Below are positions 32,408 to 56,904 of a stretch of DNA of 64,000 nucleotides, one piece after another. Both the position numbers and the translations under genes were made by a program. Where the stretch lies: the NCBI GenBank assembly GCA_947478845.1, contig CANJXC010000003.1:62001-126000 (forward strand), in the 5' to 3' direction. Each line of letters starts with the position of its first letter. Positions within the stretch are counted from its first letter, which is position 1. Source of the DNA: Spirochaetales bacterium (lineage in GTDB: Bacteria; Spirochaetota; Spirochaetia; JABEVK01). Under the pieces are notes generated by a model. It was not told the origin of the DNA and did not search any database. It worked only from the letters and a program-made list of their open reading frames with translations.

Positions 32408-32842
32408 TCAAACCTTCCAGAGACAAGTTCCGACGGCTACAAACAGAAGAACGCGGAAGACAAGCGAAAACCCGGCGTGAACCGCCAGGCGTCGCTCGGG
32501 CCGCTTGCGGATCTTCACCCAGGGCAGGTCGGTGATGGCCATCCCAAGAAGGGGTACCAGAAGGCTGATGTAGGTGGTCATCGAAAGGAAATCGAACACA
32601 TTGGTCCAAGTGGCGCCGATCCAGTGTTGGGTTAACAGCTCAAAGGCCACCCAGCAGAACCACGCTGCCGAAATCCAACCCGACACCATATTGACCGTTT
32701 TGAGAGGCCCATGGGTTTCCTTGCGGTAGAGCACAAAGAGCTCCGTCGCACCGGAGATCGTTCCAAAGCCGAGGGGAATGGCAAAATAAAACAACACGTT
32801 CCAAGGACTGTTTGAGATGATGAGTTCGAGAAGTTGGGTCAA
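32408..32842 (-). CDS. small integral membrane protein
   Basis: The 144-residue product has four hydrophobic segments (about residues 16-40, 54-74, 86-106, 120-140) joined by short basic loops (LYRKETHGP, KIRKRPERR), so a four-helix inner-membrane protein is likely. I do not recognise the family. The start is a TTG at 32842 whose GGAGG ribosome-binding site is the 3' arm of the upstream terminator hairpin. Translation of read-through transcripts from efp may therefore depend on hairpin opening. Confidence 0.65.
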   Translation of the reverse strand: MTQLLELIISNSPWNVLFYFAIPLGFGTISGATELFVLYRKETHGPLKTVNMVSGWISAAWFCWVAFELLTQHWIGATWTNVFDFLSMTTYISLLVPLLGMAITDLPWVKIRKRPERRLAVHAGFSLVFRVLLFVAVGTCLWKV

Positions 32843-32847
32843 AAAAA

Positions 32848-32897
32848 GCCTCCGGAAGCAACGCAGGTTTTCACGTGCATTGTTGCGCCGGAGGCTA
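32848..32897 (-). terminator. intrinsic terminator after efp
   Basis: On the minus strand GCCTCCGG-c-GCAAC, a 17-19 nt loop and GTTGC-tt-CCGGAGGC form a long stem (8 + 5 bp) followed by seven T. This is a textbook Rho-independent terminator, about 47 bp past the efp stop. The 3' arm contains GGAGG, the presumed ribosome-binding site of the TTG-initiated membrane-protein gene. Confidence 0.85.
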
Positions 32898-32944: not shown

Positions 32945-33514
32945 TTACTTGGTGACCTTGACGCGCTCTTTGTACGAGCCGTCGCGGGTGTCGACGCGCA
33001 CCCATTCGCCTTGGTCAACGAAAATCGGAATCATGATATCGAAGCCGGTGTCGAGTTTGGCAGGCTTCATCGCGCGGCCGGAAGTGTCTCCCTTGATGCC
33101 GGGCTCGCAATACACCACCTGGCGGTCGACCAAAATGGGAAGCTTTACGCTCACGGGTTTGCCTTCGTAGAACACGATTTCGACATCCATCCCTTCGGCC
33201 ATGTAGTGGGGCGCGTCCCCGAGGTCTTCGCGATCGATTTCCGACTGCTCAAAGCTCTCGTTGTCCATGAAGTTGAAGGTATCGCCGGTGAGGTACTGGA
33301 AGTTCATCTTCTTGATGTCGAGCAGAATCTCTTCGAAGTTGTCGCTCAACCGGTAGGCAGCCGCCGCGGTGACGCCGGTAAGAAGGTTCTTGACCCGCAA
33401 CTGGGTAACGGACATGTTGCGTCCGGTTTTGGTCCCTTCCAATTTTTGGACGACCAGGACTTCAGTACCGACTTTGAACACGGTCCCGACTTTTAATTCC
33501 GAAGCTGTCAGCAT
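32945..33514 (-). CDS. efp: elongation factor P, arginine type
   Basis: EF-P relieves ribosome stalling at polyproline. The 189-residue product has the usual KOW-like domain I and two OB domains (GDTSGRAMKPAKLDTGFDIM and VDQGEWVRVDTRDGSY are diagnostic). The domain I loop reads LEGTKTGRNMSV, so the residue at the tip is Arg32 in place of the lysine modified by EpmA. Arg32 is the residue rhamnosylated by EarP in Pseudomonas and Neisseria, and an earP gene lies directly upstream. A perfect TATAAT (33551-33546) and AGAGGA precede the ATG, so efp has its own promoter. Confidence 0.96.
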   Translation of the reverse strand: MLTASELKVGTVFKVGTEVLVVQKLEGTKTGRNMSVTQLRVKNLLTGVTAAAAYRLSDNFEEILLDIKKMNFQYLTGDTFNFMDNESFEQSEIDREDLGDAPHYMAEGMDVEIVFYEGKPVSVKLPILVDRQVVYCEPGIKGDTSGRAMKPAKLDTGFDIMIPIFVDQGEWVRVDTRDGSYKERVKVTK

Positions 33515-33545
33515 AATTCGATTCCTCTAAAAGTGATGTTCGCGG

Positions 33546-33551
33546 ATTATA
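33546..33551 (-). promoter_or_regulatory. efp -10 element
   Basis: A perfect TATAAT on the minus strand overlaps the earP stop codon and lies 31 nt before the efp ATG, with AGAGGA between. No clear -35 was seen. Confidence 0.5.
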
Positions 33552-34743
33552 CCTGAAAGCCGTTCAAGAAATCCAGAAGGCGACGGCTCAATTTGTGCGA
33601 TTTCCGGAGTTCGAGGGCCCAGTTGCCGAGAACTCCGGAGAGAACGGCGTGGTGTTCGAAGAAGGCGGCGTAGTGTTCAGCCGGTGGGTCGGTAGCGGAA
33701 TTACGAAGCGGAGTTGCCTCCGGCCGCTTGTTGAACGCGCGGAACTCTTGGGCAAGGCGGGCGAAAACCTCAGCTCCCCAACTCCCCTCGGCAGTGAAGC
33801 GGGGCTCGAACACTTCGAGGAAGGCGTTCACTTTGACCAGCTGGTGGTTTTCCTCTTGCAGGTAGGCGTGCCACAAAAAGGGTTTGCCACTGAGCACGGC
33901 CGTCACCCACGACTCTTCGCCTCGCACCACGTTGAAGTCGGCCTGATTGACCAGCGCCGTGTAGGTGTCCTGATCCACAAACGGAACCAACTGAAGCGCG
34001 ATGCGCTTGAGTCCTGGTGCGAGGTCGGGCCGCGACGCGTTTACCCGCTCCCATGAGGCGAGGGCCCCCTCGCGCTGGCGTCCCTCGAACACCTGCACCC
34101 GGGCCTTGAGGTCTGTCCCCCGCAGATGGTTGCCAAGGTCGGTCCACAGGTTCTCGAAATCGTGCTCGTAGCTGAACAGGGTGATCAGCAGGTCCTCGTC
34201 GCCACGCGACAAGTCGGGGGACAGACCTTGCGGGTTAGTCACGCCCGAGGCGTTAGTGAACACCAGCCCACCGGTGCGCTCGCGGAAGCCGGGAACAAAG
34301 AACACCCTTTCGACGCCGGGTTTGCCCAGCGGCGAGGGCAAAAGGTGGTAGCTTTCCGACCAAGCTTCGGCGGTGAGGTACTCGAGGTGAACCAGCAACA
34401 GCGCGCGCAGGCCCTTAGCCTGGGCCGAACCCGCGGCACCGGAAATAAAAAAAGCCTCCAGGCGCTCCACGGGAGTGGGCGCACCGAAGGCTTCTATTAT
34501 GACCTCAGGAAGAGGGACATACCTCAAGGCCGCAGCATCGAGGGAAGGCACCACCTGCACCGCACCGGTATTTCCGCTCGGATTCAGCGCGCGAAAGGCA
34601 GTCAGGTCGTCGACGAGAATACGGACTTGCCACTCACCATGGTGGCCCGTCGAAAGGTCTTCCACCAGAGCCTGCGCCAAGCGCCACACCACGGCGATGT
34701 CGCCGTAGTTGTCGACCACCTGGCAGACAATTTCGAGGGTCAC
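33547..34743 (-). CDS. earP: EF-P arginine rhamnosyltransferase EarP
   Basis: EarP (formerly DUF2331) is an inverting GT-B enzyme that transfers rhamnose from dTDP-L-rhamnose to Arg32 of EF-P. The 398-residue product begins with the conserved EIVCQVVDNYGDIAVVWRLA, including the Asp-rich DNYGD motif. It has the donor-site segment FNVVRGEESWVTAVLSGKPF followed by LWHAYLQEENHQLVKVNAFL. efp follows after 32 bp. All four dTDP-rhamnose genes are in the window, rfbD only about 3 kb upstream on the same strand. GTG start; it is 6 bp after the barrel-protein stop. Confidence 0.93.
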   Translation of the reverse strand: MTLEIVCQVVDNYGDIAVVWRLAQALVEDLSTGHHGEWQVRILVDDLTAFRALNPSGNTGAVQVVPSLDAAALRYVPLPEVIIEAFGAPTPVERLEAFFISGAAGSAQAKGLRALLLVHLEYLTAEAWSESYHLLPSPLGKPGVERVFFVPGFRERTGGLVFTNASGVTNPQGLSPDLSRGDEDLLITLFSYEHDFENLWTDLGNHLRGTDLKARVQVFEGRQREGALASWERVNASRPDLAPGLKRIALQLVPFVDQDTYTALVNQADFNVVRGEESWVTAVLSGKPFLWHAYLQEENHQLVKVNAFLEVFEPRFTAEGSWGAEVFARLAQEFRAFNKRPEATPLRNSATDPPAEHYAAFFEHHAVLSGVLGNWALELRKSHKLSRRLLDFLNGFQV

Positions 34744-34749
34744 CGGCTA

Positions 34750-36360
34750 TTACCAGCGGGAACCGACATGGATGGTCGCGTACAGGTGCGAGGCAAACAC
34801 GCCAGACACCAGAGCGTCGTTCCACACCAACTCTCCGGTAAGCGAAGCACCCCAGGTTGCCGCTAACGGCTGACCAAAAAGGCTCGCAAAGCTGGGCTCC
34901 CAAGAGCCGTTCCAGGAGGCCCCTGCTTGCAGGCGGGTCTCGATAACACTCTGCGTGAGGAACCTTGTGTAGGGTTGGCCGGTAGGATCGACAAACGGAC
35001 GCTGAAAAGTGGGAGTCCCATTCAGCCAGCCCGGATCGTTGATGGTGCCGTCACCGCCTGGAATGATGCCAGTGCTCGCGTTTCCATGACGCTGCAGCGT
35101 CACGGTGGCGTCGGCACTGTGCCATACTGCTTTGAAGCGAAGGCGGTCGCTGTTGGGCTGCAGCGCGGAGCCGAGGAGCGAGTCTCCGTTGGTATACACC
35201 TCGTAATTGGGACCCAGATCGCCCAGTGAGTTCATGTGAGTATAGGTGTACGGCATGATGGCCGTGTACGAGGTGGTCATCAGGGGCATCCACGGCGAAG
35301 ATCCTGGGCCCCCTGCATACTGCAATTCTCCCTGGAAGGCCACTTTCCATTTGGTATTGAGCTGGAGGGCGGCCATGTCGTTGAACTGGAGGTCGTCCAT
35401 GTAAAGGACGCCCGCGGCCCTCCATCCGGGTTGGAAGCGCCAAACTGCCGACAGCCCCATGAAGCTGTTGTCGCCGTAATTGCTCAGCCCTTGGCTGTTG
35501 AAGTAGATCGACATCGGCAGGAAATAGAGCAGGTTGAGGCTCCCTCCGCCTATCACCGACTCGAAGAACGAAAGGTCAAGTTGCGGAATGGGTGTGCCAA
35601 TGATCTCATGGTAGTACAGATACTTATCTGAACGACCCGAGACCCCGTTGTTGTAACGGGAAGCCAGAACCAGCATGTACTGCAGGTATTGGACGCCGTT
35701 GCCTTGGTAGTTGACTCCCAAGTGTCCTGTGTCGGGCGAAGTGCTGCCCACAATAAGGCCGTCGTCGGAAATCGGGCCGAAAGAATTGCGCGAAAAACCC
35801 AACTGCGCCGAAAATCCCGTGCCGCCGGCCCCACCAACGGCGGCCTCGCCTCTCGGGTCACGCCAGAGGTTCCAAGTTCGCCCTCCCACAACGACATGAC
35901 CGTCGTCGGGGGTGTAATCGTAGGGTGCGCCGGAACCGGGAACGGCGAGCGCCGCGGTGGCGGTATCCGCAGCGCGGACGTCCATGGCGGCAACGGTAGA
36001 CAAGTTCGCATCCACCAAATGCGTAGTGATAAAACTCCCGTGGGGTACCGCGGCAACGCTGGAGCCCAGCACCCAAGTCGAAACCTCCGCCTCGAAATGG
36101 ATGGATTCGGTCAAATCTTTCCGCCACGATTGGGCGAGTTGGTGGTCCTCGGCCGTCGCCTCGGGGCAATTTTCGAGCTCATCGAGCCTGGCAAGCACCA
36201 ATTGGACGCTGAAGGGACGGAAAGACGGAAGCGGGCTGATCATGGCGCGAACTTGCCAGGTATCAAGCTGCCGGTAAAGCGGGTCCTCGAGGTTGAGAAT
36301 ATCGCCGGAGGCCAGAGTGGCCACACCAAGCCCGAAAAATAGGACGAGAAGTCGCCTCAC
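34750..36360 (-). CDS. outer-membrane barrel protein, Wzi/capsule-assembly-like
   Basis: A GTG at 36360, overlapping the metK stop (GTGA), gives a 536-residue product with signal peptide [19 protein letters not shown]. After an acidic N-terminal helical part ([16 protein letters not shown]) the chain is rich in alternating aromatic and polar residues with Gly/Asn turns, and ends in Trp (HVGSRW), as outer-membrane barrels do. [13 protein letters not shown] and [10 protein letters not shown] resemble capsule assembly protein Wzi. It probably anchors or exports the rhamnose-containing polysaccharide. A second protein of similar architecture lies at 38464. Confidence 0.72.
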
Positions 36361-37520
36361 CCCACCGCCTTTTTTAGTGCCTCCACTTTGTCGGTGGCCT
36401 CCCAAGGAAATCCCTCGCGTCCGAAGTGGCCGTAGGCAGCGGTCTGGGCAAAAATGGGGCGGCGGAGGCCCAGAGTTTCGATAATTCCCGCCGGTGTCAG
36501 GTCGAACACCTCGGCTACGGCCTTTTCAATGCGCTGCTCGGAAACGGTGCCGGTGCCAAAGGTATCCACCATCACGCTCACCGGAAACGGCACGCCGATG
36601 GCGTAGCTGAGCTGGATTTCGCAGCGCTCTGCCAGGCCTGCGGCCACGATGTTCTTGGCCGCATAACGAGCCATGTAGGCGGCTGAGCGGTCCACTTTGG
36701 TGGCGTCCTTGCCGCTGAAGGCTCCCCCACCGTGACGGCCCATGCCGCCGTAGGTGTCGACGATGATTTTTCGGCCCGTGAGGCCCGAGTCGCCGTGAGG
36801 ACCACCTATGACAAACCGCCCGGTGGGGTTGATGAAGTACTTCGTGTCTTTGCTCAGCAATCCTGTCGGTTCCAGCACCGGTCGGATGATTTTGGCGAGG
36901 AGCTCTTCCTTGAGCCGGTCGTAGGTTACATCGCCATCGTGCTGATGGCTGAGCACCACCGTGTCGATGCCCACCGGTTTGTGGCCTTCATAAAGAATGG
37001 TGACCTGGCTCTTCGCATCGGGCCTAAGCCAGCTGATGCCCCCCGACTTGCGCAGCTCCGCCGCCTTCCGCAGCAAGTTGTGGGCAAACATAATGGGTGC
37101 AGGCATCAGCTCCGGCGTCTCGCGGCAAGCAAAACCGAACATCATGCCTTGGTCGCCAGCGCCTTGTTGGCCTTTGTAGAGGCCCTCACCCGAGACTCCC
37201 TGGCTGATGTCGGGGCTTTGCGCGTGGATGACGTTCATCACGCTCATGGAGTTGTAGTCGAGGCCAAACTCGGGGTTGTCGTACCCGATGCGCCGAGCCA
37301 CGCCGCGCGCGATTTCCTGAAGGTCCACATAGGCATGCGTGGTGAGCTCGCCGCCGACGAGAATCATTCCGGTGGTGGTAAAGGTTTCGCAGGCCACGCG
37401 GCTTTGCGGGTCCTCGGCTAGGCAGGCGTCGAGCACGGCGTCGCTCACCTGGTCGGCAAGTTTGTCGGGGTGGCCTTCGGAAACAGATTCGCTGGTGAAC
37501 AGATGTCGTCGGGTGGTCAT
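36357..37520 (-). CDS. metK: S-adenosylmethionine synthetase
   Basis: MetK makes SAM from methionine and ATP. The 387-residue product has the hallmark [35 protein letters not shown] (GAGDQGxMFGYA motif) and [20 protein letters not shown]. It sits inside a polysaccharide operon with 4-bp overlaps on both sides (rfbD stop/metK ATG; metK stop/barrel GTG), which is unusual for this housekeeping gene. The arrangement could supply SAM for a methylated sugar or simply reflect operon reshuffling. Confidence 0.97.
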
Positions 37521-38446
37521 GGAATGAGCATTCCTTTGGAATGGATTTCTTGCAGAAACTTATTAAGACTTGCTTTCCACGGTGGCATTTCAAGTCCGAA
37601 GTTCTGCTTGAGCTTTTCTTTTGAAAGCACCGACCAGGCGGGACGCTTTGCCTTAGTCGGGTATTGGTCAGTGGTCAGGGGGTTCAAGGTGAGAGGCTTG
37701 GCGGGGTCGAGCAGGCCTTCTGCTTGGCCGCCTTTGAGAATTGCTGAGGCAAACTCGAACCAGGTAGACTGCCCCTCCCCGCTCACATGGTAAACACCCC
37801 ACGTTGGGTGGTTTGCCTCGGGTGCGGGCTGGGCAAGCACTTCAGCCATTACGCTGGCTAAGTCTCGCGTCCAAGTGGGCGAACCGAACTGGTCGGCCAC
37901 CACGCCCAACGCTTGCTTGGTTTTCATGAGGCGAAGCATTGTGAACACGAAGTTAGGACCCGCAGCGCCGTATAGCCAAGCGGTACGAAAAATGATGTGC
38001 CGGGCGCAATGTGCGGTGATGCGGGCCTCCCCTTCGGCCTTGGTGCGTCCATACACGCCTTGCGGACCCACGTGGTCGGTCTCGACATAGGGTCGAAGTG
38101 TTGCTTTCGGGCCGGCGACTCCTCTCCCATCGAATACATAGTCGGTGCTTACGTGCAGCAGGGCGGCTCCCAGTCGATCTGCCAATCGAGCGAGGTTTTC
38201 GGCTCCATTGACGTTGAGGCGGGTGCAGGCCTCCACCTCGTCTTCGGCTTTGTCGACGAAGGTGTACGCCGAACAGTTGACGATCCATGTCGGTGGCTTA
38301 GAAAGTTTCGCGGCAAAAACCTCTAACCTAGATGCATCTCCAACGTCCACGTCTCGGCTACTACCCACCCATGGAAGGCCACGGGCCGTGAGACCTTCGC
38401 AAAGCTCGGTACCGAGCATACCATTTTGACCAACAAGCCAGATCAT
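37517..38446 (-). CDS. rfbD: dTDP-4-dehydrorhamnose reductase
   Basis: RfbD carries out the last step of dTDP-L-rhamnose synthesis. The 309-residue short-chain dehydrogenase fold has an N-terminal nucleotide motif ([18 protein letters not shown]), [12 protein letters not shown], the YGRTKAEGE active-site Tyr-x-x-x-Lys and [15 protein letters not shown]. It is about 16 kb away from rfbABC, though on the same strand; the stretch between holds an IS remnant, pseudogenes and a sulfation module. Its stop overlaps the metK ATG. Confidence 0.95.
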
Positions 38447-38463: not shown

Positions 38464-40146
38464 CTAGAAGCTGTTGGTCCACGAGAGAACCGACTGCCAG
38501 TCCCAGGTCATCGGCGAGGCGACGTGGGATTTGTTCCAAATCAAGCTGAACGTAGACTGAAGCCCCAAATTGCCTTTCCATGGCAGGCTCAGCTCACCAG
38601 CTAGCATCAAGCCCTGTTTCCACTCGGGAGTGCCGGTGGGCGTCACCCAAGGCAAGTAGACCTCGGGGTGGTCAAATAAGGGGTTAAGTATCGCATTCGC
38701 CGGAACGGTCCAAGCATACTGCTGCAAGGGGTGGATGGTTCTGATGGTGTTCTCGCCGCGAACCTGGAAAGGGAAACCTACCTCTGCGCGCCACGCTCCG
38801 GGCGCCTCGAGGCGTAATACCGACCGGACAGCAATGGTATCGGGTCCCAGTTCGAAGCCTAAGGGGGTGTCGATGATACGACGCCCAGGCGAACCCGAGT
38901 TGCTCAGATACCTAGTTGTTTTCAACATGTTGACATGTTGGTTAAGGTAAAGAAACGGGTCGGTATACACTCCCTCAATTTCAAATGTCGCGATACTGCC
39001 AGCAAACTCAGTGACCAACCGGGTACCGCCGAGGTAACCCATGGAACCCGGGGTTGGATCTTTGTACAACTCGTCTTTAATCGCGGTTTTGACGTAATCA
39101 GCATAGACCTGGCCCCAAACAGACCAACCGTTTGTTAAGGAACCCTCGATTTCTAGTGAGATATCCGAGTTTGCAGCATCATGCACAAACCAGTTGTGAC
39201 CGATGACCATCGGATTGAAATAGCGAGGATCAAAAACCGCAGACTCAATCATCAAGATCTCGGAAATCGCAACTGACCAACTGGGAGTGGGTCGAACCTG
39301 AAGCCTATGAACCACAAAGCTTTTGCTCTGGTCGTAGGGAACCACATTCAGGGAATCATTTTCGGCGGTACCGAAGTACCCGTAAGTCTGATTTGGGGAA
39401 ATCCAGGTATTGTCGAGCGGAATCCACAGAAAAGAGTAGCTAAAGTTGTTCCACCAAGTGTTTAGGCTCAACTGATCAACTTCGCCCGCGTCCTGCGAGA
39501 GGATGAGGTTCCATTTAGACACCGCAAAGCTGGCCTTTGAGCGGAAGAACCGAGCGTCCCAATGAGCACCGCCTATTACCACGCCTGCCCAGTAGGGCCA
39601 CTGGAAGTCAGCCTGAACTACCTGCAAGGGCAAGTTCGAGACGGGTTGGCTCTCGTTAAACACGGTGAAAGGTTCCTTTTTCAACACCGCATCCATCGTT
39701 CCATAGAGCCACGATAACACCCAAGCCTCGGACAGGAGGCGGAAAGCGGGAAGGCGGCTGAAGTAGCCGTAATCCCATTTTTGGAACTCTGGGCCAAGCC
39801 CCAGATAAAACTCAGGGTTGATTTCAGTGGTGATTTTGGCAGTCAGACCAGAATCCGGGGTGACATCTGCCTCAATGTAGGTTGGCTTTACTGTCAGGGC
39901 TGCCCGAATGGCCTCGTCAAGGGGGCCTTGGTCTCCCATTTGGTCGAGGAGCTGCAGAATCTGCCCAGCGGTATAGGGTGCTGACCGTGAAGCCGAGACA
40001 ACACCATGTTGGGTTTCCAGTGCTCCTAGCCAGCGGTACACCGGAGAATCAACCGCTACAGGATTTTCCCCATTTTGTGCTAACACAGCAACCGCCATGA
40101 AGGCCATCGTGAGAATCGCTAAACCTGACCGAAAGCGCACAAACAC
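38464..40146 (-). CDS. predicted outer-membrane barrel protein
   Basis: The 560-residue product has a signal peptide (MFVRFRSGLAILTMAFMAVA, cleavage near LAQ) and an early helical part (LGALETQHGVVSASRSAPYT). A long region of alternating aromatic/polar strands follows, ending in a terminal Phe (SVLSWTNSF), an outer-membrane barrel signature. Its N-terminal layout parallels the Wzi-like protein at 34750 (DSPVYRWL here, DPLYRQL there, both followed by helices and the barrel). A role in polysaccharide export or anchoring is inferred from context between wecA-like and rfbD genes. Confidence 0.68.
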   Translation of the reverse strand: MFVRFRSGLAILTMAFMAVAVLAQNGENPVAVDSPVYRWLGALETQHGVVSASRSAPYTAGQILQLLDQMGDQGPLDEAIRAALTVKPTYIEADVTPDSGLTAKITTEINPEFYLGLGPEFQKWDYGYFSRLPAFRLLSEAWVLSWLYGTMDAVLKKEPFTVFNESQPVSNLPLQVVQADFQWPYWAGVVIGGAHWDARFFRSKASFAVSKWNLILSQDAGEVDQLSLNTWWNNFSYSFLWIPLDNTWISPNQTYGYFGTAENDSLNVVPYDQSKSFVVHRLQVRPTPSWSVAISEILMIESAVFDPRYFNPMVIGHNWFVHDAANSDISLEIEGSLTNGWSVWGQVYADYVKTAIKDELYKDPTPGSMGYLGGTRLVTEFAGSIATFEIEGVYTDPFLYLNQHVNMLKTTRYLSNSGSPGRRIIDTPLGFELGPDTIAVRSVLRLEAPGAWRAEVGFPFQVRGENTIRTIHPLQQYAWTVPANAILNPLFDHPEVYLPWVTPTGTPEWKQGLMLAGELSLPWKGNLGLQSTFSLIWNKSHVASPMTWDWQSVLSWTNSF

Positions 40147-40151
40147 CTGAC

Positions 40152-41237
40152 TCAGCCTTCTTTGCTCACAAACGCCTTGTGAGTGTAATGCAAGAACGAG
40201 AACAGGGCGACGATAACTATACCGCTCAATAGGCTAGCGAGCCAGGAAATGTCGGGTGAACTGACCACACCTGCCAAGACAACTGGCGCTGCAGTTACCA
40301 ACGTAGCCAAGTAAACGAGGACCAGAACCTGCTTCGTTGTGAGGCCCATAGCAAGCAATTTATGGTGCATGTGCGCCTTGTCGGGGCTCCAGATAGGCCT
40401 GTTTTCGCGCAGTCGCCGTAGGATGGCAGCCATGGTATCCGACATCGGTACCAGCATCAGCACCACTGGCAGAAGCCAGCAGTGCGCCATCAGAGAGTGT
40501 TCACCGCCCCACAGGGGGAGCACGGCTAGCAGGTAGCCGAGGGTAAGGCTGCCTGAGTCGCCCATGAACAGTTTTGCGGGGGGAAAGTTGAACAGCAGAA
40601 AGGCCAAGACTGCACCGCCGGCGACGAAACTCACGATGGCAGGGAGTTCCTGACCAGTCAGGAGCGCAAAAGTACCGACCGAGGCTAGGCTTATGAGGCT
40701 GAAGCCGCCAGCCAACCCATCCATTCCATCGATGAGGTTAACCGCGTTGGTGATACCTACCACCCACAGCAGGGTGACAAAGGGAGCAAACGAACCTAAT
40801 TCAAGTTTGATCGTTGTGAAGGGAATCTGTAAATGGTCGAAACTGAGGCCCGCACCGATGGCTAGCAACGCTCCGAGCAATTGAAGGAGCAGTTTGTAGA
40901 TGGCCCTCAGTTCGACGAAGTCGTCCAACAATCCCAGTGAGTGGGTTGAACCGAGACCAAGGAGCAAAAGCAACGCCGACAACGTCCAAGAACCCGCTGG
41001 GACAAACCCCGGCCACAGTTGATCGGTGGCGAAGAGGCCCACGAGTACCACCGCAATCGAAAAAAACAGGCCCACCCCACCAAGGCGCGGCACAGGGTCC
41101 TTATGTACAGTACGGTGGTTGGGTTCATCCACCCAGTTCTTTCTGCGGGACACCTGAACGATCAACGGCGTCACCAACGTATTGAGCACGAAGGCTACCA
41201 AAGCAGCCATCCCGGCTACAAGCCAAAGCTTGGTCAT
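40152..41237 (-). CDS. WecA/TagO-like polyprenyl-phosphate sugar-1-phosphate transferase
   Basis: This enzyme starts polysaccharide synthesis by moving a sugar phosphate (often GlcNAc-1-P from UDP-GlcNAc) to undecaprenyl phosphate. The 361-residue protein has about 10-11 membrane helices and the family motifs in order: VPRLGGVGLFF, LGLLDDFVELRAIYK (Asp-Asp), AVNLIDGMDGLAGGF, LFMGDSGSLTLGYLL and KAHMHHKLLAMG (HxHH). It is closer to WecA/TagO than to MraY by the HMHHKL loop. It lies in the rhamnose-polysaccharide region and is the likely initiating enzyme. Confidence 0.9.
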   Translation of the reverse strand: MTKLWLVAGMAALVAFVLNTLVTPLIVQVSRRKNWVDEPNHRTVHKDPVPRLGGVGLFFSIAVVLVGLFATDQLWPGFVPAGSWTLSALLLLLGLGSTHSLGLLDDFVELRAIYKLLLQLLGALLAIGAGLSFDHLQIPFTTIKLELGSFAPFVTLLWVVGITNAVNLIDGMDGLAGGFSLISLASVGTFALLTGQELPAIVSFVAGGAVLAFLLFNFPPAKLFMGDSGSLTLGYLLAVLPLWGGEHSLMAHCWLLPVVLMLVPMSDTMAAILRRLRENRPIWSPDKAHMHHKLLAMGLTTKQVLVLVYLATLVTAAPVVLAGVVSSPDISWLASLLSGIVIVALFSFLHYTHKAFVSKEG

Positions 41238-41357: not shown

Positions 41358-42506
41358 TTAGAATGCATCTGAGCTAAATCCGCCCGATAGGTCGATCTTG
41401 AGGGCAAGTGCCCAGGCTTCATGGTAGGTGGCAATCGTGCTTTTCACCCAGCGCGAGTTGGCAGTGCCCCAACTCACCGGCATGCCCAATGTTACATGAA
41501 TATGCAAAAAAGGATCGGCCTCGAGGCCCAAGATCAACTGGCCAGAACTGTCGGCAAAGGAATGGGTAACCCTCGCTGAGGGCTTGATTCCTGTACCGGG
41601 GATGTTGGACCAACTGGCAGCCAAGGCGACGCTCTGGTCACTCCAGCCGAGTGCCGGAGAGTCAATCAGCCATTCACCCTGCACACGTAGCTTGGGTTCA
41701 AAACCCTCCCAGTACACTCCCGCCAGAGCTTGCACCTGCACATTTGACAACGGATTGACACTGCCTGCTAGGGTAACTTTGCTTTCGGCGAACACATCGG
41801 CACCCCACAGTACTGTCTTGGCCCAAAGGTCAAACTTAGGCGCTGCCGAGGCCGCATACCAGCCGGCTAGGTTAGCGGTGAATGGCCCTAGGTTGCCTTC
41901 AGTCTGTGCAGCCCACTGGAGTTGTGCCAAAGTCGTGGCGACTGGTGGCAAAATCATCACCCCTGTAAAGCCGAGCGGCCCCAACGGGGTGAAAGCTTTA
42001 ATGGAAAGGTCGTCTGCGGCACTAGCGACCAGATCGTTCACTCCAAACAGTCGACCTGCGCCCCAACTCATGCCGAACTTTCCCAAGGTGATGAACACTC
42101 GGTCGGCCAGCGTGTAGTCAAGGTACATGGAGCCTATGCTGGGCGTGCTCCAAGTGACGTTTCCTGCTGGAATTGCCGTCGAGAAGGATGCACTCCAGTG
42201 AAAGGTCGGGTCGGGTTTGTAATCAAAGGACAGGCTGCTGCTGAGGTCGTAACCGAAGCCCTTGTCGAAGTTGCTCGCCAAGTCTGCCGGGTTTGGAGTT
42301 TGCGACCAACCCGCGTATCCAACGCCGCTCATGGTGATGCTACCACTCAGTGCGGGTTTAGGATTGGCCAAGATTGGGCTTAGATCAACCTTTGGGCCTT
42401 CGGGGGCAACGGAGTCGGCGGCCGGGTTGTCAAAAAGGGTGTCCGACTCCTGAGCGTGGACAGCAGTTGCAAGAACCAGCGCGCACATCAGCGCAGCGAT
42501 TCTCAA
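41358..42506 (-). CDS. predicted outer-membrane barrel linked to a LolA-like protein
   Basis: Signal peptide MRIAALMCALVLATAVHA starts a 382-residue product. The rest is beta-rich with repeated aromatic-Gly strands (SITMSGVGYAGWSQTPN, DRVFITLGKFGMSWGAGRLF, LDYTLADRV) and ends in Phe. The GKFGMSWGAGRLFGVNDLV segment is typical of porin-like barrels whose strands carry KxxxxWG patterns. Its ATG overlaps the stop of the LolA-like gene, so it is the last gene of the FtsX/LolA operon and may be the outer-membrane end of that transport route. Confidence 0.68.
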   Translation of the reverse strand: MRIAALMCALVLATAVHAQESDTLFDNPAADSVAPEGPKVDLSPILANPKPALSGSITMSGVGYAGWSQTPNPADLASNFDKGFGYDLSSSLSFDYKPDPTFHWSASFSTAIPAGNVTWSTPSIGSMYLDYTLADRVFITLGKFGMSWGAGRLFGVNDLVASAADDLSIKAFTPLGPLGFTGVMILPPVATTLAQLQWAAQTEGNLGPFTANLAGWYAASAAPKFDLWAKTVLWGADVFAESKVTLAGSVNPLSNVQVQALAGVYWEGFEPKLRVQGEWLIDSPALGWSDQSVALAASWSNIPGTGIKPSARVTHSFADSSGQLILGLEADPFLHIHVTLGMPVSWGTANSRWVKSTIATYHEAWALALKIDLSGGFSSDAF

Positions 42507-46833: not shown

Positions 46834-48702
46834 TCACCCGTTCCCCTGGACTTCCGCCGAGTACAATCTCTGGAGGACATAGTCATGGAGACGCTCGATA
46901 CTCGAGCGCACTGGCTCGTTCTCGGTGTCGACCACAAGATCGGGCGTTAGGGGCACCTCGTAGAGTGAGTCGATGCCCGTCATGTGCTTAATGAGGCCAA
47001 GTCGGGCTTTGCGGTACAGCCCCTTGGGATCGCGGATCTCGCACACCGCCAGCGAGGCCCTAACGTAGACTTCGACAAAGTCACCCTCGAGATATTGCTC
47101 CTTCGCTTCATTCCTTTCGGCCTCAAGCGGAGAAATAAAGGAGCAAAGGACAATGTGTCCCGTCTCGAACAGGAACTTCGCTACGTGTCCAGCTCGCCTT
47201 AGGTTTTCGCGCCGGTCAGCGTCCGTGAAGCCGAGATCGCCGTTAAGTCCGTGACGCAAGTTGTCTCCATCCAGCCGGACGACCGAGATGCCCGACTGGT
47301 GAAGGAGTCTCTCGAGCATGCCGGCCAACGTTGACTTGCCACTCCCCGAAAGCCCGGTCATCCAGACAACCAGAGGCCGGTGTCCGTTACGCTCGATACG
47401 CTCTTCCAATGACACACCGGAGCCATCCCAAAGTGTGTTGGGTGAGTGTTCTTCGGAGCTGGAAGGGGCGAGAAATCGCAGCATCCCGACGGCGACGGTG
47501 GCGAGCGTCAGCTCGTCGACCAGGAGAAAACTTCCTGTTTCCCTATTGACGCGGTACTCATCGTAGAAGATCGGTTCGGCCGTTTGGAGGGTGATCCTGC
47601 CAATCTCGTTGAGCTGAAGTGACCTGACGTCTTCTCGATGGAGAGAGTCGACCGAAATACGGTGGCGGATTCTTTCGATGGAGACTTTAGTCTTGCGAGT
47701 TGTGTGCAGAAGCAGGTAGGAGGCGCCCTTGGTGAGGTTCCTCCTTTCGTCCATCCAACAGACGACTGCGTCGAGGGTCTTGGCAACCATGGGCTGATTG
47801 CCCGGTCTCACGAGCATGTCGCCGCGGCCCAAGTCGATGTCATTCTCCAGCGCCACCACTACCGACTGACCATGGAGCGCCTCGGCTACTTTGCGTCCCG
47901 AATGCGTAAGCCCGCTGACGATCGAACGCCGACGAGAAGGCAGGGCCAAAACCTCATCGCCGACTCGAAGGTGCCCCGAGCAAATGCGCCCGGCGTAACC
48001 GCGGAATTCGGCGTCGGGGCGAAGGGCTAACTGAATGGGAAGCCGAAAGTCGATCTGGTTCCGCTTCGAAGCGACATGGACCGTCTCGAGGTGGCCCAGT
48101 ATCGTCGGGCCCGTGTACCAAGGGCAGTGAGAACTCCTCACGACAATATTGTCACCGTCCAAGGCCGACACCGGCACGATCACAAGTTCGTGCACAGTCA
48201 GCTTCTGACAGAACTCACGGCACTCGTCAGCTATCCGCTGGAAGACCTCCGAAGACCACCGAACAAGATCCATCTTGTTGACAGCAATCACCACGTGACT
48301 GATCCCCAACAGCGTTGCCAAAAAAAGGTGCCTTCGTGTCTGGACCAAGAGGCCCTGGGTTGCATCGATGAGAAGAACTGCTAAGTCGGCGGTTGACGCC
48401 CCCGTGACCATGTTGCGTGTGTACTGCTCGTGGCCTGGGGTGTCGGCGATGATGAATTTTCGGTGGGCTGTCGCGAAGTAACGGTAGGCGACGTCAATGG
48501 TGATTCCCTGCTCGCGCTCGCTCTTAAGGCCATCGGTTACTAATGCGAGGTCGAAGCCGGTTTGCCCGCGGCGCTGATTATAGCTGACCAGCGAGGCGAT
48601 GGTGTCCTCATAAAGGTTGCTGCTGTCGTAGAGCAGCCGTCCGATGAAAGTGCTCTTCCCGTCATCGACGCTACCGGCGGTGATAAAGCGTAGCAGTTCC
48701 AT
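46834..48702 (-). CDS. cysNC: bifunctional sulfate adenylyltransferase subunit 1/APS kinase
   Basis: CysN is the GTPase subunit of ATP sulfurylase; CysC phosphorylates APS to PAPS. The 622-residue fusion has the GTPase P-loop ITAGSVDDGKSTFIGRLLY (residues 10-18 core), IADTPGHEQYTRNMVTGAST and VNKMDLV. At about residue 450 comes the APS kinase P-loop WMTGLSGSGKSTLAGML, then VVRLDGDNLRHGLNGDLGFT. It overlaps cysD by one base. The fusion resembles NodQ. No PAPS or sulfite reductase is near, so PAPS is probably made for sulfation. Confidence 0.95.
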   Translation of the reverse strand: MELLRFITAGSVDDGKSTFIGRLLYDSSNLYEDTIASLVSYNQRRGQTGFDLALVTDGLKSEREQGITIDVAYRYFATAHRKFIIADTPGHEQYTRNMVTGASTADLAVLLIDATQGLLVQTRRHLFLATLLGISHVVIAVNKMDLVRWSSEVFQRIADECREFCQKLTVHELVIVPVSALDGDNIVVRSSHCPWYTGPTILGHLETVHVASKRNQIDFRLPIQLALRPDAEFRGYAGRICSGHLRVGDEVLALPSRRRSIVSGLTHSGRKVAEALHGQSVVVALENDIDLGRGDMLVRPGNQPMVAKTLDAVVCWMDERRNLTKGASYLLLHTTRKTKVSIERIRHRISVDSLHREDVRSLQLNEIGRITLQTAEPIFYDEYRVNRETGSFLLVDELTLATVAVGMLRFLAPSSSEEHSPNTLWDGSGVSLEERIERNGHRPLVVWMTGLSGSGKSTLAGMLERLLHQSGISVVRLDGDNLRHGLNGDLGFTDADRRENLRRAGHVAKFLFETGHIVLCSFISPLEAERNEAKEQYLEGDFVEVYVRASLAVCEIRDPKGLYRKARLGLIKHMTGIDSLYEVPLTPDLVVDTENEPVRSSIERLHDYVLQRLYSAEVQGNG

Positions 48703-49628
48703 CAGAAGTACCCTTCTCGTTTGCGGTCTTCCATGGCGGCCTCGGACTTTCGGTCGTCGGCTCTGGTACCGCGTTCTGTTGTGCTGGTGTGTGTCAGTTC
48801 AGCAATGACCGCGCGACTATCTCGGGCCTGAGATTCGACCGCCCCGGTACACGTGATGTCCCCGATTGTGCGAAACCTCACCGTTTTGCGTTCAAACGAC
48901 CCTCCTTGGCCAAGGGTGACAAAGGGACTCCGGGCAAGGAGCATGCCTTCACGGGTCACCACATCTCGCTCATGGGCGAAGTACAAGGAGGGTAAGGAAA
49001 TCTCCTCGGCAAGAGCATAGTTCCACACGTCGAGCTCTGTCCAGTTGCTGAGGGGAAAAACCCGGAAGTGCTCTCCGGGTCGCTTCAGCCCGTTGAATAA
49101 GTTCCAGAGTTCGGGTCGCTGATTCTTGGGGTCCCACTGACCCGAACGGTTGCGAAACGAAAAGAACCTCTCCTTGGCGCGGGCTTTTTCCTCGTCGCGA
49201 CGAGCGCCACCCAAGAGCGCGTCAAACTTCAGCTCACCTATGGCGTCCAAAAGAGTAACGCTTTGCAACGCGTTGCGACTGGGGTTCGTAGAGGTGTCGT
49301 CAGCAATTCTCCCCGAATCAATCGACTCCTGTACCTTACGCACGAGTAAGGTGGCTGTGAGTTTCTCACACCACTGGTCGCGAAACGCCAGTGTTTCCGT
49401 GAAGTTATGACCTGTGTCGATGTGAAGCAGGGGAAAGGGAATCCCTCCGCGCAGAAAGGCTTTCCGCACAAGCCACGACAGGACTATGGAGTCCTTACCC
49501 CCGGAGAAGAGAAGTCCTAGGCGCTCGGTCTGTGTGTAGGCCTCCCTAATGACGAAAATGGCTTCGTCTTCGAGCTGCGAGAGGTGTTCCTCAGCCAAGA
49601 TTAAACTGCTCCCGGATGCGGCGTTCAA
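48702..49628 (-). CDS. cysD: sulfate adenylyltransferase subunit 2
   Basis: CysD is the catalytic subunit of ATP sulfurylase. The 308-residue product has the PP-loop LGLLFSGGKDSIVLSWL (SGGKDS at residues 42-47), LLHIDTGHNFTETLAFRD, FDALLGGARRDEEKARAKER and FPLSNWTELDVWNYALAEE, all diagnostic for CysD/NodP. The ATG at 49628 overlaps ssuC by 38 bp; a TTG at 49598 is a possible shorter start. It is coupled to cysNC downstream. Confidence 0.95.
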   Translation of the reverse strand: MNAASGSSLILAEEHLSQLEDEAIFVIREAYTQTERLGLLFSGGKDSIVLSWLVRKAFLRGGIPFPLLHIDTGHNFTETLAFRDQWCEKLTATLLVRKVQESIDSGRIADDTSTNPSRNALQSVTLLDAIGELKFDALLGGARRDEEKARAKERFFSFRNRSGQWDPKNQRPELWNLFNGLKRPGEHFRVFPLSNWTELDVWNYALAEEISLPSLYFAHERDVVTREGMLLARSPFVTLGQGGSFERKTVRFRTIGDITCTGAVESQARDSRAVIAELTHTSTTERGTRADDRKSEAAMEDRKREGYF

Positions 49629-50346
49629 GGGGTTGGAACACCCCTCGTTCGAAAATGAGTCCGAAAACGATGATGATTATCATGACGGCGACGACCAAGC
49701 TCATATCGTTAAGCTCTCTTCCTTGACTGAGTCGCTGACCCAGCCCCACTCCATAGTAGAGAAGTTCGCCGGCCATGAGTGAACGCCAAGCAAAAGACCA
49801 TCCGAGCTTCATGCCGGTAATCATCGAAGGAAGTGAGGCCGGCAACAGCACTTGTATTGTCAAGAATAAACTGTTCGCTCCCAGCGTGCGTGCAGAACGA
49901 ATGGAATTCGCTGGCACACTCTGGATGCCGTCACGCGTGGCGATGGCAATGGCCCAGACGGCCCCCATGAAGACGACGAAAATCACGGCCATTTCAGAGA
50001 GTCCGAACCATAGTAGCGCAATGGGGAGCCAAGTGATGCTAGGCAGAGCCTGCAATCCGATCATGAGGACGCCGACAGTGTCTTGGACTAGTCGTGATCG
50101 CCCCCAGATGAGGCCGAGTGGAACTCCCACGAGTAGGGAAATAGCATAGCCCACACCCAAACGCGCAAGACTGGAAACGGTGGCCTCCAGCAGGGTGCCA
50201 TCGGCGATTCCTGCGGTGTATACCTCCAAAACTTCGGCTGGTGATGGGAAAAGGTAGTTCGGCCAAAGTTGCAGGCCTGCCAAGACTTGCCAAAGCGCCA
50301 GAACCACAAAAAGAAAACTGAACTTGGTAGCAAAACGTCGATTCAA
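49591..50346 (-). CDS. SsuC/TauC-type ABC importer permease
   Basis: The 251-residue inner-membrane permease has about six helices and the EAA loop region AIATRDGIQSVPANSIRSAR followed by TLGANSLFLTIQVLLPASLP, typical of the nitrate/sulfonate/taurine importer group. TTG start overlapping the ssuB stop (TTGA). Gene context with cysD and cysNC, and the lack of an SsuD/TauD-type desulfonation enzyme, suggests that the substrate may be sulfate or another sulfur oxyanion; this is inference. Confidence 0.88.
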   Translation of the reverse strand: MNRRFATKFSFLFVVLALWQVLAGLQLWPNYLFPSPAEVLEVYTAGIADGTLLEATVSSLARLGVGYAISLLVGVPLGLIWGRSRLVQDTVGVLMIGLQALPSITWLPIALLWFGLSEMAVIFVVFMGAVWAIAIATRDGIQSVPANSIRSARTLGANSLFLTIQVLLPASLPSMITGMKLGWSFAWRSLMAGELLYYGVGLGQRLSQGRELNDMSLVVAVMIIIIVFGLIFERGVFQPLERRIREQFNLG

Positions 50347-51092
50347 TGGGCTGCCTTTCGCAGTTCGTGAAGCACACCGCGAGCCAGCTCGGCAATCCCC
50401 GGATCCTCAAAGTGCCGAGGTCGTGGCAGATCCACCGGGAAGACTCGTTGAATGCGTCCTGGCCGGGGCCTTAAAACCGCCACCCGGTCTCCCAAAATAA
50501 GCGCCTCTCGCACATTGTGGGTAACAAAGACGATGGTCGCCTTCGTCGCGAGCCAGATACGCTGCAGTTCTTCATGCAGAAGGTCGCGGGTCATGGCATC
50601 GAGGGAGGCAAATGGCTCATCCATCAACAGGATCTCGGGCTTCAGGCAAAGAGCGCGGGCGAGAGCGACCCGCTGCCGCATACCACCCGATAGCTGATAA
50701 ACTTTTGCTCGCCGAAAATCATGAAGCCCAACGAGTTCAAGATATTCGGCGGCGACTCGGCGTCGTTGAGGCTTGGGCATTTGTTGGGCTGCCAGGCCAA
50801 AAGCGACGTTGTCTTCCACCGAAAGCCAGGGGAACAGGGTGGCGTCTTGGAAAAGCAATACGGCTCGGGCAGCCGGCTGGCCCGGGCTTCGCCCATTGAC
50901 GATGACGGTTCCCGAACTGGGACTCTCGAAGCCTGCGAGTAGATTGAGCAATGTAGACTTTCCACACCCCGACGGCCCGAGCAGGCAGACAAACTCGGCC
51001 CGCTGCACTTCCAATTCGATGTGTTCGAGCACCTGAACGGATGCCCCTCGCGACGAAAAGGCCTTGGAAACGTTCTGCAGGTGAATAGACAT
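50343..51092 (-). CDS. SsuB/TauB-type ABC importer ATPase
   Basis: The 249-residue ATPase has Walker A CLLGPSGCGKSTLLNLLAG (residues about 39-47), Q-loop VLLFQDATLFPWLSVEDNVA, signature QLSGGMRQRVALARAL, Walker B EILLMDEPFASLDAMTRDLL and the H-loop VFVTHNVREAL. The FPWL sequence after the Q-loop is characteristic of the SsuB/TauB/NrtD family. It lies 2 bp after the binding-protein gene and overlaps the permease gene. Confidence 0.93.
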   Translation of the reverse strand: MSIHLQNVSKAFSSRGASVQVLEHIELEVQRAEFVCLLGPSGCGKSTLLNLLAGFESPSSGTVIVNGRSPGQPAARAVLLFQDATLFPWLSVEDNVAFGLAAQQMPKPQRRRVAAEYLELVGLHDFRRAKVYQLSGGMRQRVALARALCLKPEILLMDEPFASLDAMTRDLLHEELQRIWLATKATIVFVTHNVREALILGDRVAVLRPRPGRIQRVFPVDLPRPRHFEDPGIAELARGVLHELRKAAH

Positions 51093-51094
51093 CG

Positions 51095-52060
51095 TCAGAA
51101 AGATCCCTTAGAGAATAGGCCGCTAAGGTCAGTGTTGCCACGAAGAAATAGCAGAGCCTTCGCGTTGTCCGCGAGCTTCTGGAACTTGATTGGTTCAAGA
51201 TCACTGGTGACTTCAAAGCGCTTCCAAGCCTCAGACAGAACGTTCTGACCCAAGGGCCGACCAGTGATCGAAGCCAGCGCAGAATTGACCGCGCCTTGTG
51301 CCTGCTCGGGATAGGCGCCGATCCATTCTGTCAACAGGCGGTGGCTCGAGACAAAACTTGCTACGGCCTGTGGGTGGGCAGTGGCGAAGGCTGTTGCTAC
51401 TACTACTACGGTAGTCGGGAACCGGGAATTGGACCAAAGGTCTCTCTCGTCGACAACACGAGTCCCGCCACCCTCGAGAACGAGCCGCGTTGCCCAAGGC
51501 TCCGGTACCCACGCTCCCGCCAGGTCACCCCGTTGGAAGGCAGGCAGAATCAGTGAGTTTTCGGTGGGAAGAACTGTGGCCTTGAGTTCGTGCACCCTCA
51601 AGTACGTTCTCAGGGCCACGTCTTGAGTGTTCCCGAGTTGGGGAGAGGCGATTCTGCCACCGACCATCGACCCGGGAAACCCTGGAGCCAAGTTTCTCTG
51701 CACCACCAGAGACGCGCCTCCCTCGGTGGCACCGGCAACTATCGTAAACGCTTTACCTTTACTTTTGAGAAAGCCATTGATCGCGGGGCTTGGTCCAAGA
51801 TAGGCAACATCGATTTTACCTGCAAAGAGTGCCTCGACTATGGAAGGGCCGGCGTTGAACACCACAGTGACAAGCTTCGTACCGGCACCGAGCGCCGCGG
51901 CAAAGTCTCCTCGTGCGACGCCTATCAACGCTTGGGTGTGGGTGAGGTTGGCCATATAGCCAAGACGAAAGTCAGTGGGAAAAATCTGGGCTGTCAATAG
52001 AGGTGACCCGCAAAAGGTTAACACTAAGACCGCGAATAGGGTGCAAGTGCGGACTTTCAT
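51095..52060 (-). CDS. SsuA/TauA-type periplasmic binding protein
   Basis: The 321-residue product has a signal peptide (MKVRTCTLFAVLVLTFCGSP, cleavage near LTAQ). It has the two-lobe binding fold of the NMT1/SsuA family: FRLGYMANLTHTQALIGVAR, FNAGPSIVEALFAGKIDVAY, YLGPSPAING and GAWVPEPWATRLVLEGGG. The YLGPSPAING loop is the usual anion-contact region. Its ATG overlaps the sulfotransferase stop (ATGA), so the importer is coupled to that gene, which supports delivery of sulfur for sulfation. Confidence 0.9.
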   Translation of the reverse strand: MKVRTCTLFAVLVLTFCGSPLLTAQIFPTDFRLGYMANLTHTQALIGVARGDFAAALGAGTKLVTVVFNAGPSIVEALFAGKIDVAYLGPSPAINGFLKSKGKAFTIVAGATEGGASLVVQRNLAPGFPGSMVGGRIASPQLGNTQDVALRTYLRVHELKATVLPTENSLILPAFQRGDLAGAWVPEPWATRLVLEGGGTRVVDERDLWSNSRFPTTVVVVATAFATAHPQAVASFVSSHRLLTEWIGAYPEQAQGAVNSALASITGRPLGQNVLSEAWKRFEVTSDLEPIKFQKLADNAKALLFLRGNTDLSGLFSKGSF

Positions 52061-54424: not shown

Positions 54425-55492
54425 TCAGCGGCGAGCGTAGTTGGCGTCGACCCACTTTCGGTAGTCGCCACTGGTCACCTGGGCCACCCAAGCTTGGTTG
54501 TCGAGGTACCACTGGACGGTCTTCTCAATTCCTTGCTCAAAAGTCACCGATGGCGCCCAACCGAGTTCGGTTTTGAGCTTGTGGCAGTTGATCGCGTAGC
54601 GCCGATCATGGCCGGGGCGGTCTTTCACGTAGGTGATCAGGTTGCGAAGGTCAGCCAAGTTGCGGCCGGCAAGGCGGGCAACGGTTTCAATGAGTACCTC
54701 GAGCAGTTGGATGTTTTGCCACTCGTTTTCGCCGCCGACGTTGTAGGTTTCGCCGATCGAACCCTTGGTCACGATGGCCCAGATGGCGTTCGCATGGTCT
54801 TCGACGTAGAGCCAGTCGCGCACATTCTTTCCGTCGCCGTAAACAGGGAGCGTCTTGCCGGTCAGCAGGTTATTTATCATGAGGGGAATGAGCTTCTCGG
54901 GAAAGTGATAGGGGCCATAGTTGTTCGAGCAGTTGCTCATGGTGATGGGCAGGCCGTAGGTGTGGTGCCAGGCCTGCACGAGGTGATCGCTAGAGGCCTT
55001 GCTGGCGCTGTAGGGACTACGGGGGTCGTAGGCGGTGGTCTCGAGGAACTTGCCCGTGTCGCCCAGGCTTCCATACACCTCGTCGGTGCTCACGTGATGA
55101 AACAGCACGTCTTTGCGGTCACCCCAAAGTTCGCGGGCAGCTTGGAGCAAAGTAAATGTGCCCAGAATGTTTGTCCGAATGAAATCTCCGGGGCCGTGGA
55201 TGGACCGGTCCACGTGGCTTTCAGCGGCAAAATGGATTATGGCATCGACCTCATGGTCGCGTAGGGCTGCCGCCACTTGGGTGGACTCGGCAATGTCACC
55301 ACGGACAAAGTGGTAGCGCTCCCCATATGCCGATGCGATGTCGGCCAGGCTGTGGGGATTGCCGGCGTAGGTCAGTTTGTCGAAGTTAACCATCCGGCCA
55401 GCAAACGAAGTCTTGGTGAACACGTACCGGATGAAGTTGCTGCCGATGAAGCCGGCGCCGCCGGTCACGAGGATGTTGTGAAAGGTTCTCAT
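54425..55492 (-). CDS. rfbB: dTDP-glucose 4,6-dehydratase
   Basis: RfbB makes dTDP-4-keto-6-deoxyglucose. The 355-residue short-chain dehydrogenase has [53 protein letters not shown], the catalytic [12 protein letters not shown] and [19 protein letters not shown], all diagnostic. The ATG overlaps the rfbC stop. It is the last intact gene of the upstream rfb operon before the IS3 remnant. Confidence 0.97.
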
Positions 55493-56028
55493 GGTTTATC
55501 CTTCAGAAAGGGCAATTGCTGATCTTTGTCGCTGACTTGCACGTCAGTGATGGGCCAGCGAATGGCCAGCTCGGGGTCATCCCAGCGAAGTCCGCCCTCG
55601 CTGGCTTTGTTGTATTCTGCCGTGCATTTATAGACGAACTCGGCATGGTCACTCAAGGTGACGAAGCCATGGCCGAAGCCTTCGGGCAAGTAGAGCTGGG
55701 TGCGGTTGTCTTCGCTGAGCTCCAGAGCAAACCACTGGCCAAAGGTGGGGCTTTGGGGCCGCAGGTCGACGGCGACGTCCCAAACTCGACCTCGCACCAC
55801 CCGGACAAGTTTACCTTGGGCAAACGGAGGGCTCTGGAAGTGGAGGCCTCTGAGGACTCCAGCAACGCTGACACTGTGGTTGTCTTGCACAAAGTTGCTC
55901 GGCACGCCGTTGGCGGCGTATTCGCTAGCTTTGAAGGTTTCAAAGAAGCTACCGCGTCCGTCCGGGAACACCCTAGGCTGTATGAGGACCAAGCCCTCAA
56001 GTGGACCTTGGCGAAACTCAGCTGGCAT
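55489..56028 (-). CDS. rfbC: dTDP-4-dehydrorhamnose 3,5-epimerase
   Basis: RfbC epimerises C3 and C5 of the keto sugar. The 179-residue cupin has the catalytic His in [20 protein letters not shown], plus [20 protein letters not shown] and [20 protein letters not shown]. Length is typical. It follows rfbA by 9 bp and overlaps rfbB by 4 bp. Confidence 0.97.
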
Positions 56029-56037
56029 GCGCCTCCC

Positions 56038-56904
56038 TTAGTCCTTGGCGACCTTGAACAGGTACTCACCGTAGGTGGACTTCTTGAGCGCCTCGGCCAA
56101 CACGAGGAATTGCTCTTTGGTGATGAACCCCTGACGGTAGGCAATCTCCTCGATGCAGGCGATCTTCATGCCCTGCCGGTCCTCGATGGCTTTAACGAAG
56201 TTGGTGGCGTCGACCAGGCTTTCATGGGTACCGGTATCAAGCCAGGCAAACCCCCGCCCCATCAGCTCCACGCTCAACAAGCCTCGCTTGAGGTACTCCC
56301 GGTTGACGTCGGTAATCTCATATTCTCCACGGGCCGAGGGCTTAAGGTGTCTCGCGATTTCGACAACTTGGTTGTCGTAAAAGTACAACCCCACGACGGC
56401 ATAGTTGCTCTTCGGCTTGGCTGGTTTCTCCTCGATCGAGAGCACACGGCCCGCTTTGTCAAACTCCGCTACGCCGTAGCGTTCTGGGTCGGCCACCTGA
56501 TAGCCAAACACCGTGGCTCCGACACTTTTTCGCTTGGCGTTGTCCAGCAGACTGGTAAAATCGTGACCAAAGAAAAGGTTGTCGCCCAGCACCAAGCAAA
56601 CCGAATCGTCTCCTATAAAGTCTCTACCCAACACAAAGGCCTGCGCTAACCCATTAGGTACAACCTGCACCACGTAAGACAAGCGCAAGCCTAGCTCGTG
56701 CCCTTCGCCGAACAGCTCACGGAACCTAGGAGTGTCGGCAGGCGTGCTGATGATCAGGATATCCCGAATCCCGGCGAGCATGAGTGTGCTCAGAGGGTAG
56801 TAGATCATAGGCTTGTCGTAAACGGGCAGGAGCTGCTTACAGACCACTCGGGTAGCCGGGTAGAGGCGGGTTCCCGCCCCGCCTGCAAGAATGATTCCTT
56901 TCAT
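56038..56904 (-). CDS. rfbA: glucose-1-phosphate thymidylyltransferase
   Basis: RfbA makes dTDP-glucose from dTTP and glucose-1-phosphate. The 288-residue nucleotidyltransferase has [52 protein letters not shown] and [20 protein letters not shown], which identify RmlA. The ATG overlaps the wzz-like stop. With rfbC and rfbB it supplies dTDP sugar; rfbD is about 16 kb downstream. Confidence 0.97.

Follow-up and report, generated by a model that had tools for sequence, protein, structure and literature searches.

The window, as we call the whole 64-kb stretch of spirochaete DNA analyzed here, encodes elongation factor P (EF-P) and EarP, the EF-P arginine rhamnosyltransferase, at the end of a series of closely spaced minus-strand genes (Table 1). 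From wecA (41237) to efp (32945), all genes lie on one strand at intervals of 5, 17, −4, −49, 6, and 32 bp, and the last five of them, rmlD-metK-orf551-earP-efp, form a tight run (the last four intervals) that is followed by a strong terminator. The original prediction that earP directly precedes efp was borne out, with 32 bp between the two genes. Given the packing of the genes and the terminator after efp, a single transcript from wecA to efp is possible. We rejected a candidate promoter serving the whole run, as a sigma-70 scan returned a weak site just ahead of wecA and the number of sites was at chance level.

Table 1. Features of the rhamnose and EF-P genes in the window
Feature	Positions	Strand	Description	Basis
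rmlA	56038..56904	minus	glucose-1-phosphate thymidylyltransferase	above TIGR cutoff
rmlC	55489..56028	minus	dTDP-4-dehydrorhamnose 3,5-epimerase, sole copy	above TIGR cutoff
rmlB	54425..55492	minus	dTDP-glucose 4,6-dehydratase, sole copy	above TIGR cutoff
wecA	40152..41237	minus	WecA/MraY-type undecaprenyl-phosphate sugar phosphotransferase, start of close-packed run	profile matches, spacing
560-aa ORF	38464..40146	minus	likely outer-membrane protein, part of wecA-efp run	
rmlD	37517..38446	minus	dTDP-4-dehydrorhamnose reductase, sole genome copy	TIGR01214
metK	36357..37520	minus	4-bp overlap with rmlD	
orf551	34750..36405	minus	551 aa, likely outer-membrane protein, no family match, 6 bp before earP	
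earP	33547..34743	minus	EF-P arginine rhamnosyltransferase, 398 aa	PF10093, residue mapping
TATAAT	33546..33551	minus	−10-like, over earP TAA stop codon, candidate private efp promoter	
efp	32945..33514	minus	elongation factor P, 189 aa, loop KTGRNMS with Arg32	profile matches and alignment
Arg32 codon	33419..33421	minus	CGC, predicted rhamnosylation site	aligns with KSGRN loop of P. aeruginosa EF-P
Terminator	32841..32895	minus	intrinsic, after efp, hairpin then seven T	−26.2 kcal/mol, z −4.4, 68-nt piece

Large reading frames resembling outer-membrane proteins (34750-36405, 38464-40146, and 41358-42506) are interspersed with the envelope sugar genes, and none matched a Pfam family even at an E value of 1. 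The first of these has alternative starts at 36360 or 36324, and distant homologues of it are found, divergent, beside earP at two loci of genus g3 (L003 and L004). Elsewhere in the window (46834-52060), a cysN/C fusion, encoding a bifunctional sulfate adenylyltransferase subunit 1/APS kinase, and cysD lie downstream of a sulfonate/taurine-type ABC transporter.

EF-P acceptor residue and EarP active site

The efp product contains all three EF-P domains (Pfam PF08207, PF01132, and PF09285) and scores 196.7 bits against the equivalog profile TIGR00038 (cutoff, 185.8). Its loop tip reads GTKTGRNMS, and Arg32 aligns with the modified-arginine loop of Pseudomonas aeruginosa EF-P. The protein is thus an Arg-type EF-P, as originally predicted, and the objection anticipated at that time, a loop residue other than Arg32, does not apply. 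Every earP-linked efp that was read in our survey likewise pairs a loop-tip arginine with EarP, and in all EarP-positive genomes of the window's family earP adjoins an efp encoding Arg32.

EarP matches PF10093 (GT104) over its full length (231 bits over residues 4 to 393; cutoff, 25) and is related to EarPs with solved structures. Its score against TIGR03837, 221 bits, falls below the equivalog cutoff of 347, a result to be expected had that model been built mainly on proteobacterial sequences. To compare active sites, we aligned 68 EarP sequences, transferred residue positions from Pseudomonas putida EarP, and took the roles of the residues from published work (PMC5615199). The invariant catalytic acids D13, D17, and E273 correspond to D11, D15, and E276 in the window protein. 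Also identical are R271, F191, Y193, and F252 (R274, F190, Y192, and F255 in the window EarP) and Q255, S275, and Y291 (Q258, S278, and Y294). Five of the seven residues of the dTDP-rhamnose pocket (F191, Y193, F252, Q255, F258, R271, and D274) are therefore retained. The other two are F258, replaced by Tyr261, the commonest residue here among sampled non-spirochaete EarPs, and D274, replaced by Glu277, a substitution present in 11 of 36 spirochaete sequences; a further donor-side difference is R278, which is Thr281 in the window EarP. With its catalytic and nearly all of its donor-site residues kept, the enzyme looks functional, and the other objection anticipated in the original prediction, an EarP lacking its donor-site residues, does not apply either.

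Rhamnose supply and the position of rmlD

All four enzymes of dTDP-L-rhamnose synthesis are encoded in the window, each scoring above its TIGR cutoff (for RmlD, 290 bits against TIGR01214; cutoff, 224), and a genome search found RmlB, RmlC, and RmlD once each. The expected distance of about 3 kb between rfbD (rmlD) and the downstream earP was measured as 2.8 kb, and rfbABC (rmlABC), also foreseen in the window, lie as rmlACB about 16 kb beyond rmlD on the same strand. Because RmlB, RmlC, and RmlD are single copy, a single dTDP-L-rhamnose pool very likely supplies both EarP and the envelope polysaccharides, in agreement with the earlier proposal that EF-P and the surface polysaccharide would draw on a common supply. 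Such sharing is to be anticipated for EarP bacteria as a rule, and EF-P activation was shown in a reporter strain to need rmlC and rmlD (PMC8184846).

Beyond a shared metabolite, rmlD-metK-orf551-earP-efp could be read as a working operon in which EF-P activation is linked to the supply of envelope rhamnose, so that polyproline translation is tuned by envelope sugar status. The one-strand spacing of −49 to 32 bp from wecA to efp, the strong terminator, and the likelihood of one dTDP-rhamnose pool are compatible with that reading. So is the arrangement in a member of the window's genus (L002), where earP-efp also ends an envelope sugar run: a glycosyltransferase gene, the end of which earP overlaps, lies downstream of ugd, metK, and a sugar-transferase gene; LolA-like and OMP-like genes belong to the same run, and rmlD is absent from it. 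However, rmlD stands beside earP only in the window genome. The adjacency is missing from the other family genomes and from the listed EarP-positive genomes of the phylum; where coordinates were listed for other EarP-positive genomes, earP and rmlD are on different contigs or separated by 64 kb or more, and relatives (G381, G395, and G394) keep rmlD with rmlC and/or rmlB. A conserved rmlD-earP linkage was accordingly rejected. The rmlD neighborhood of earP is a genome-specific rearrangement and bears no sign of EF-P regulation.

Also weighing against such an operon is a −10-like box, TATAAT, that covers the earP stop codon and in the window lies 31 bp ahead of efp. All five EarP-positive family genomes retain the box, yet the EarP proteins of the family share only 38 to 58% identity with the window EarP. 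TATAAT occurs only twice in the 64-kb window, and its placement over the stop requires the last earP codon to end in TA, as do 2.3% of codons (NTA). Inspection by eye revealed no clear −35 element near it. The conserved box suggests that efp has a private promoter at the earP stop codon, which argues against strict coregulation of efp and rmlD. The neighboring proteins, moreover, are without triple-proline stretches: EarP, RmlD, MetK, and the products of adjacent genes contain isolated PP pairs only, and we rejected polyproline autoregulation on the same grounds. Taken with the genome-private position of rmlD, these observations make the coupling operon quite unlikely, and the suggestion that the closeness of rmlD links envelope sugar status to polyproline translation is not supported.

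The expression of earP itself could still follow that of the envelope run. If earP were transcribed with envelope sugar genes (rmlD in the window, the glycosyltransferase gene in the genus member) and efp from its own promoter, the rhamnosylated fraction of EF-P would follow expression of the envelope locus, and EF-P modification state would be tied to envelope rhamnose in this lineage. We consider this quite unlikely.

At one locus in the window's genus (G394, L070, 1401-3350), RmlD and RmlB form one in-frame protein of approximately 650 aa, an apparent RmlD-RmlB fusion.

EarP within the family and across Spirochaetota

The family sample comprised seven genomes, five in genera g1 and g3 (the window genome included) and two in g2. 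All five of the former encode EarP, an Arg32 EF-P, one RmlD, and one RmlC, and their other four EF-Ps are 80 to 86% identical to that of the window. The two g2 genomes are without EarP, RmlC, and RmlD and instead have an EpmA-like gene immediately ahead of a Lys-tip efp (594-2070 of L079 in G096 and 6103-7615 of contig C43 in G286), the product of which has the loop TPGKGTA and is 33% identical to the window EF-P. RmlB occurs in both EarP-positive and EarP-negative family genomes. The two groups thus contrast in EF-P and modifier jointly, and also in whether the final two enzymes of rhamnose synthesis (RmlC and RmlD) are encoded. In the literature searched, we found no report of an EarP/EpmA switch within a family; what is new is a genus with EpmA and a Lys-tip EF-P that jointly is without EarP, RmlC, and RmlD. 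The family thus offers a natural experiment in which an Arg-plus-EarP cassette is swapped for a Lys-plus-EpmA cassette, with RmlC and RmlD accompanying only the former. Here one can test whether retention of the rhamnose pathway is constrained by EF-P modification and not by surface polysaccharide.

Of the 393 Spirochaetota genomes sampled, 61 (about a sixth) encode EarP. RmlD is present in 58 of these 61, compared with 133 of the 332 EarP-negative genomes (Fisher P = 3e-17, uncorrected for phylogeny); at the genus level, 12 of the 14 genera with EarP include EarP-positive genomes that encode RmlD. For a few EarP-positive genomes, profile scores alone do not separate EpmA from lysyl-tRNA synthetase.

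Three EarP-positive genomes with Arg-tip EF-Ps (G306, G322, and G354, at loci L049, L063, and L047), estimated to be 94 to 99% complete, are without RmlB and RmlD, and two of the three are also without RmlC. The donor rule may have exceptions in which EarP uses another donor, or these assemblies may be incomplete. Such genomes, and the D274E and R278T differences of the window EarP, would be accommodated if the EarP of this lineage used another dTDP- or nucleotide sugar and the rml genes were irrelevant to it. We regard this as very unlikely, because the dTDP pocket is otherwise intact and RmlC and RmlD track EarP within the family, as RmlD does in nearly all EarP-positive genomes of the phylum.

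Other earP loci vary in layout. At L045 (41209-44262 of contig C15 in G191), two earP genes, one per strand, flank one efp. Long open frames at some loci had raised the suspicion of fused EarP/EF-P proteins; this was rejected, because the checked loci that contain EF-P have it as its own match after earP, and the long frames seem to be open sequence surrounding earP.

The original prediction described EarP systems as best studied in beta- and gammaproteobacteria. Their occurrence outside those classes is not new, EarP having already been listed in Spirochetes, Fusobacteria, and Planctomycetes (PMC5615199). It had also called for the EarP phylogeny to be set against taxonomy, and this comparison places both the window EarP and its EF-P inside spirochaete clades. 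The closest EarPs are from spirochaete metagenome assemblies. In an unrooted tree of 67 EarPs, for which sampling started from the window EarP, all 36 spirochaete sequences form one clade (98/86) and 29 proteobacterial sequences form another (100/99), with the window EarP in a family subclade (100/98). Among 82 EF-Ps in a second unrooted tree, the Arg-type spirochaete proteins group together as a clade (100/99), apart from the Lys-type spirochaete proteins (100/100). Recent horizontal acquisition of EarP and EF-P from beta- or gammaproteobacteria might be suspected from the betaproteobacterial origin proposed for EarP (PMC5615199) and from the prevalence of the other EF-P type in the spirochaete class, but the spirochaete EarPs and Arg EF-Ps each stand as one clade apart from the proteobacterial sequences. 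Both trees led us to reject such a transfer, which we judge to be extremely improbable. As the trees are unrooted and sampling started from the window EarP, they would be compatible with one ancient transfer in either direction. These results firmly assign a deep spirochaete lineage to the EarP group and mark EarP as an established, clade-forming spirochaete trait.

Comparison with known EF-P modification systems

Judged from sequence, the window very probably encodes a canonical spirochaete system for arginine rhamnosylation of EF-P by EarP. In it, RmlA, RmlB, RmlC, and RmlD would produce dTDP-beta-L-rhamnose, EarP would move the rhamnose onto the guanidine group of EF-P Arg32, and the rhamnosylated EF-P would relieve ribosome stalling at consecutive prolines. 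We infer the modification of Arg32, its dependence on rmlD, and the sharing of the pool with surface polysaccharide; the mechanism would be that of the known EarP pathway, and a sensing link is unsupported beyond the expected sharing of a metabolite.

Arginine rhamnosylation of EF-P by EarP (CAZy family GT104) is known from P. putida, P. aeruginosa, Neisseria meningitidis, and Shewanella oneidensis. The window resembles these systems in its Arg32 acceptor, the position of earP beside efp, the catalytic acids, the dTDP pocket, and a complete rml pathway. It differs in its loop, KTGRNMS in place of KSGRN(A/S)A, and in its EarP, which carries D274E and R278T and scores below the TIGR03837 cutoff. 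Unlike its relatives, it has rmlD in the same gene run as earP. EpmA-type beta-lysylation, known from Escherichia coli and represented here by g2, targets the same loop position, and in g2 the EpmA-like gene likewise directly precedes efp; the g2 system is set apart from that of the window by its TPGKGTA Lys tip, its distant EF-P, and the absence of EarP, RmlC, and RmlD.
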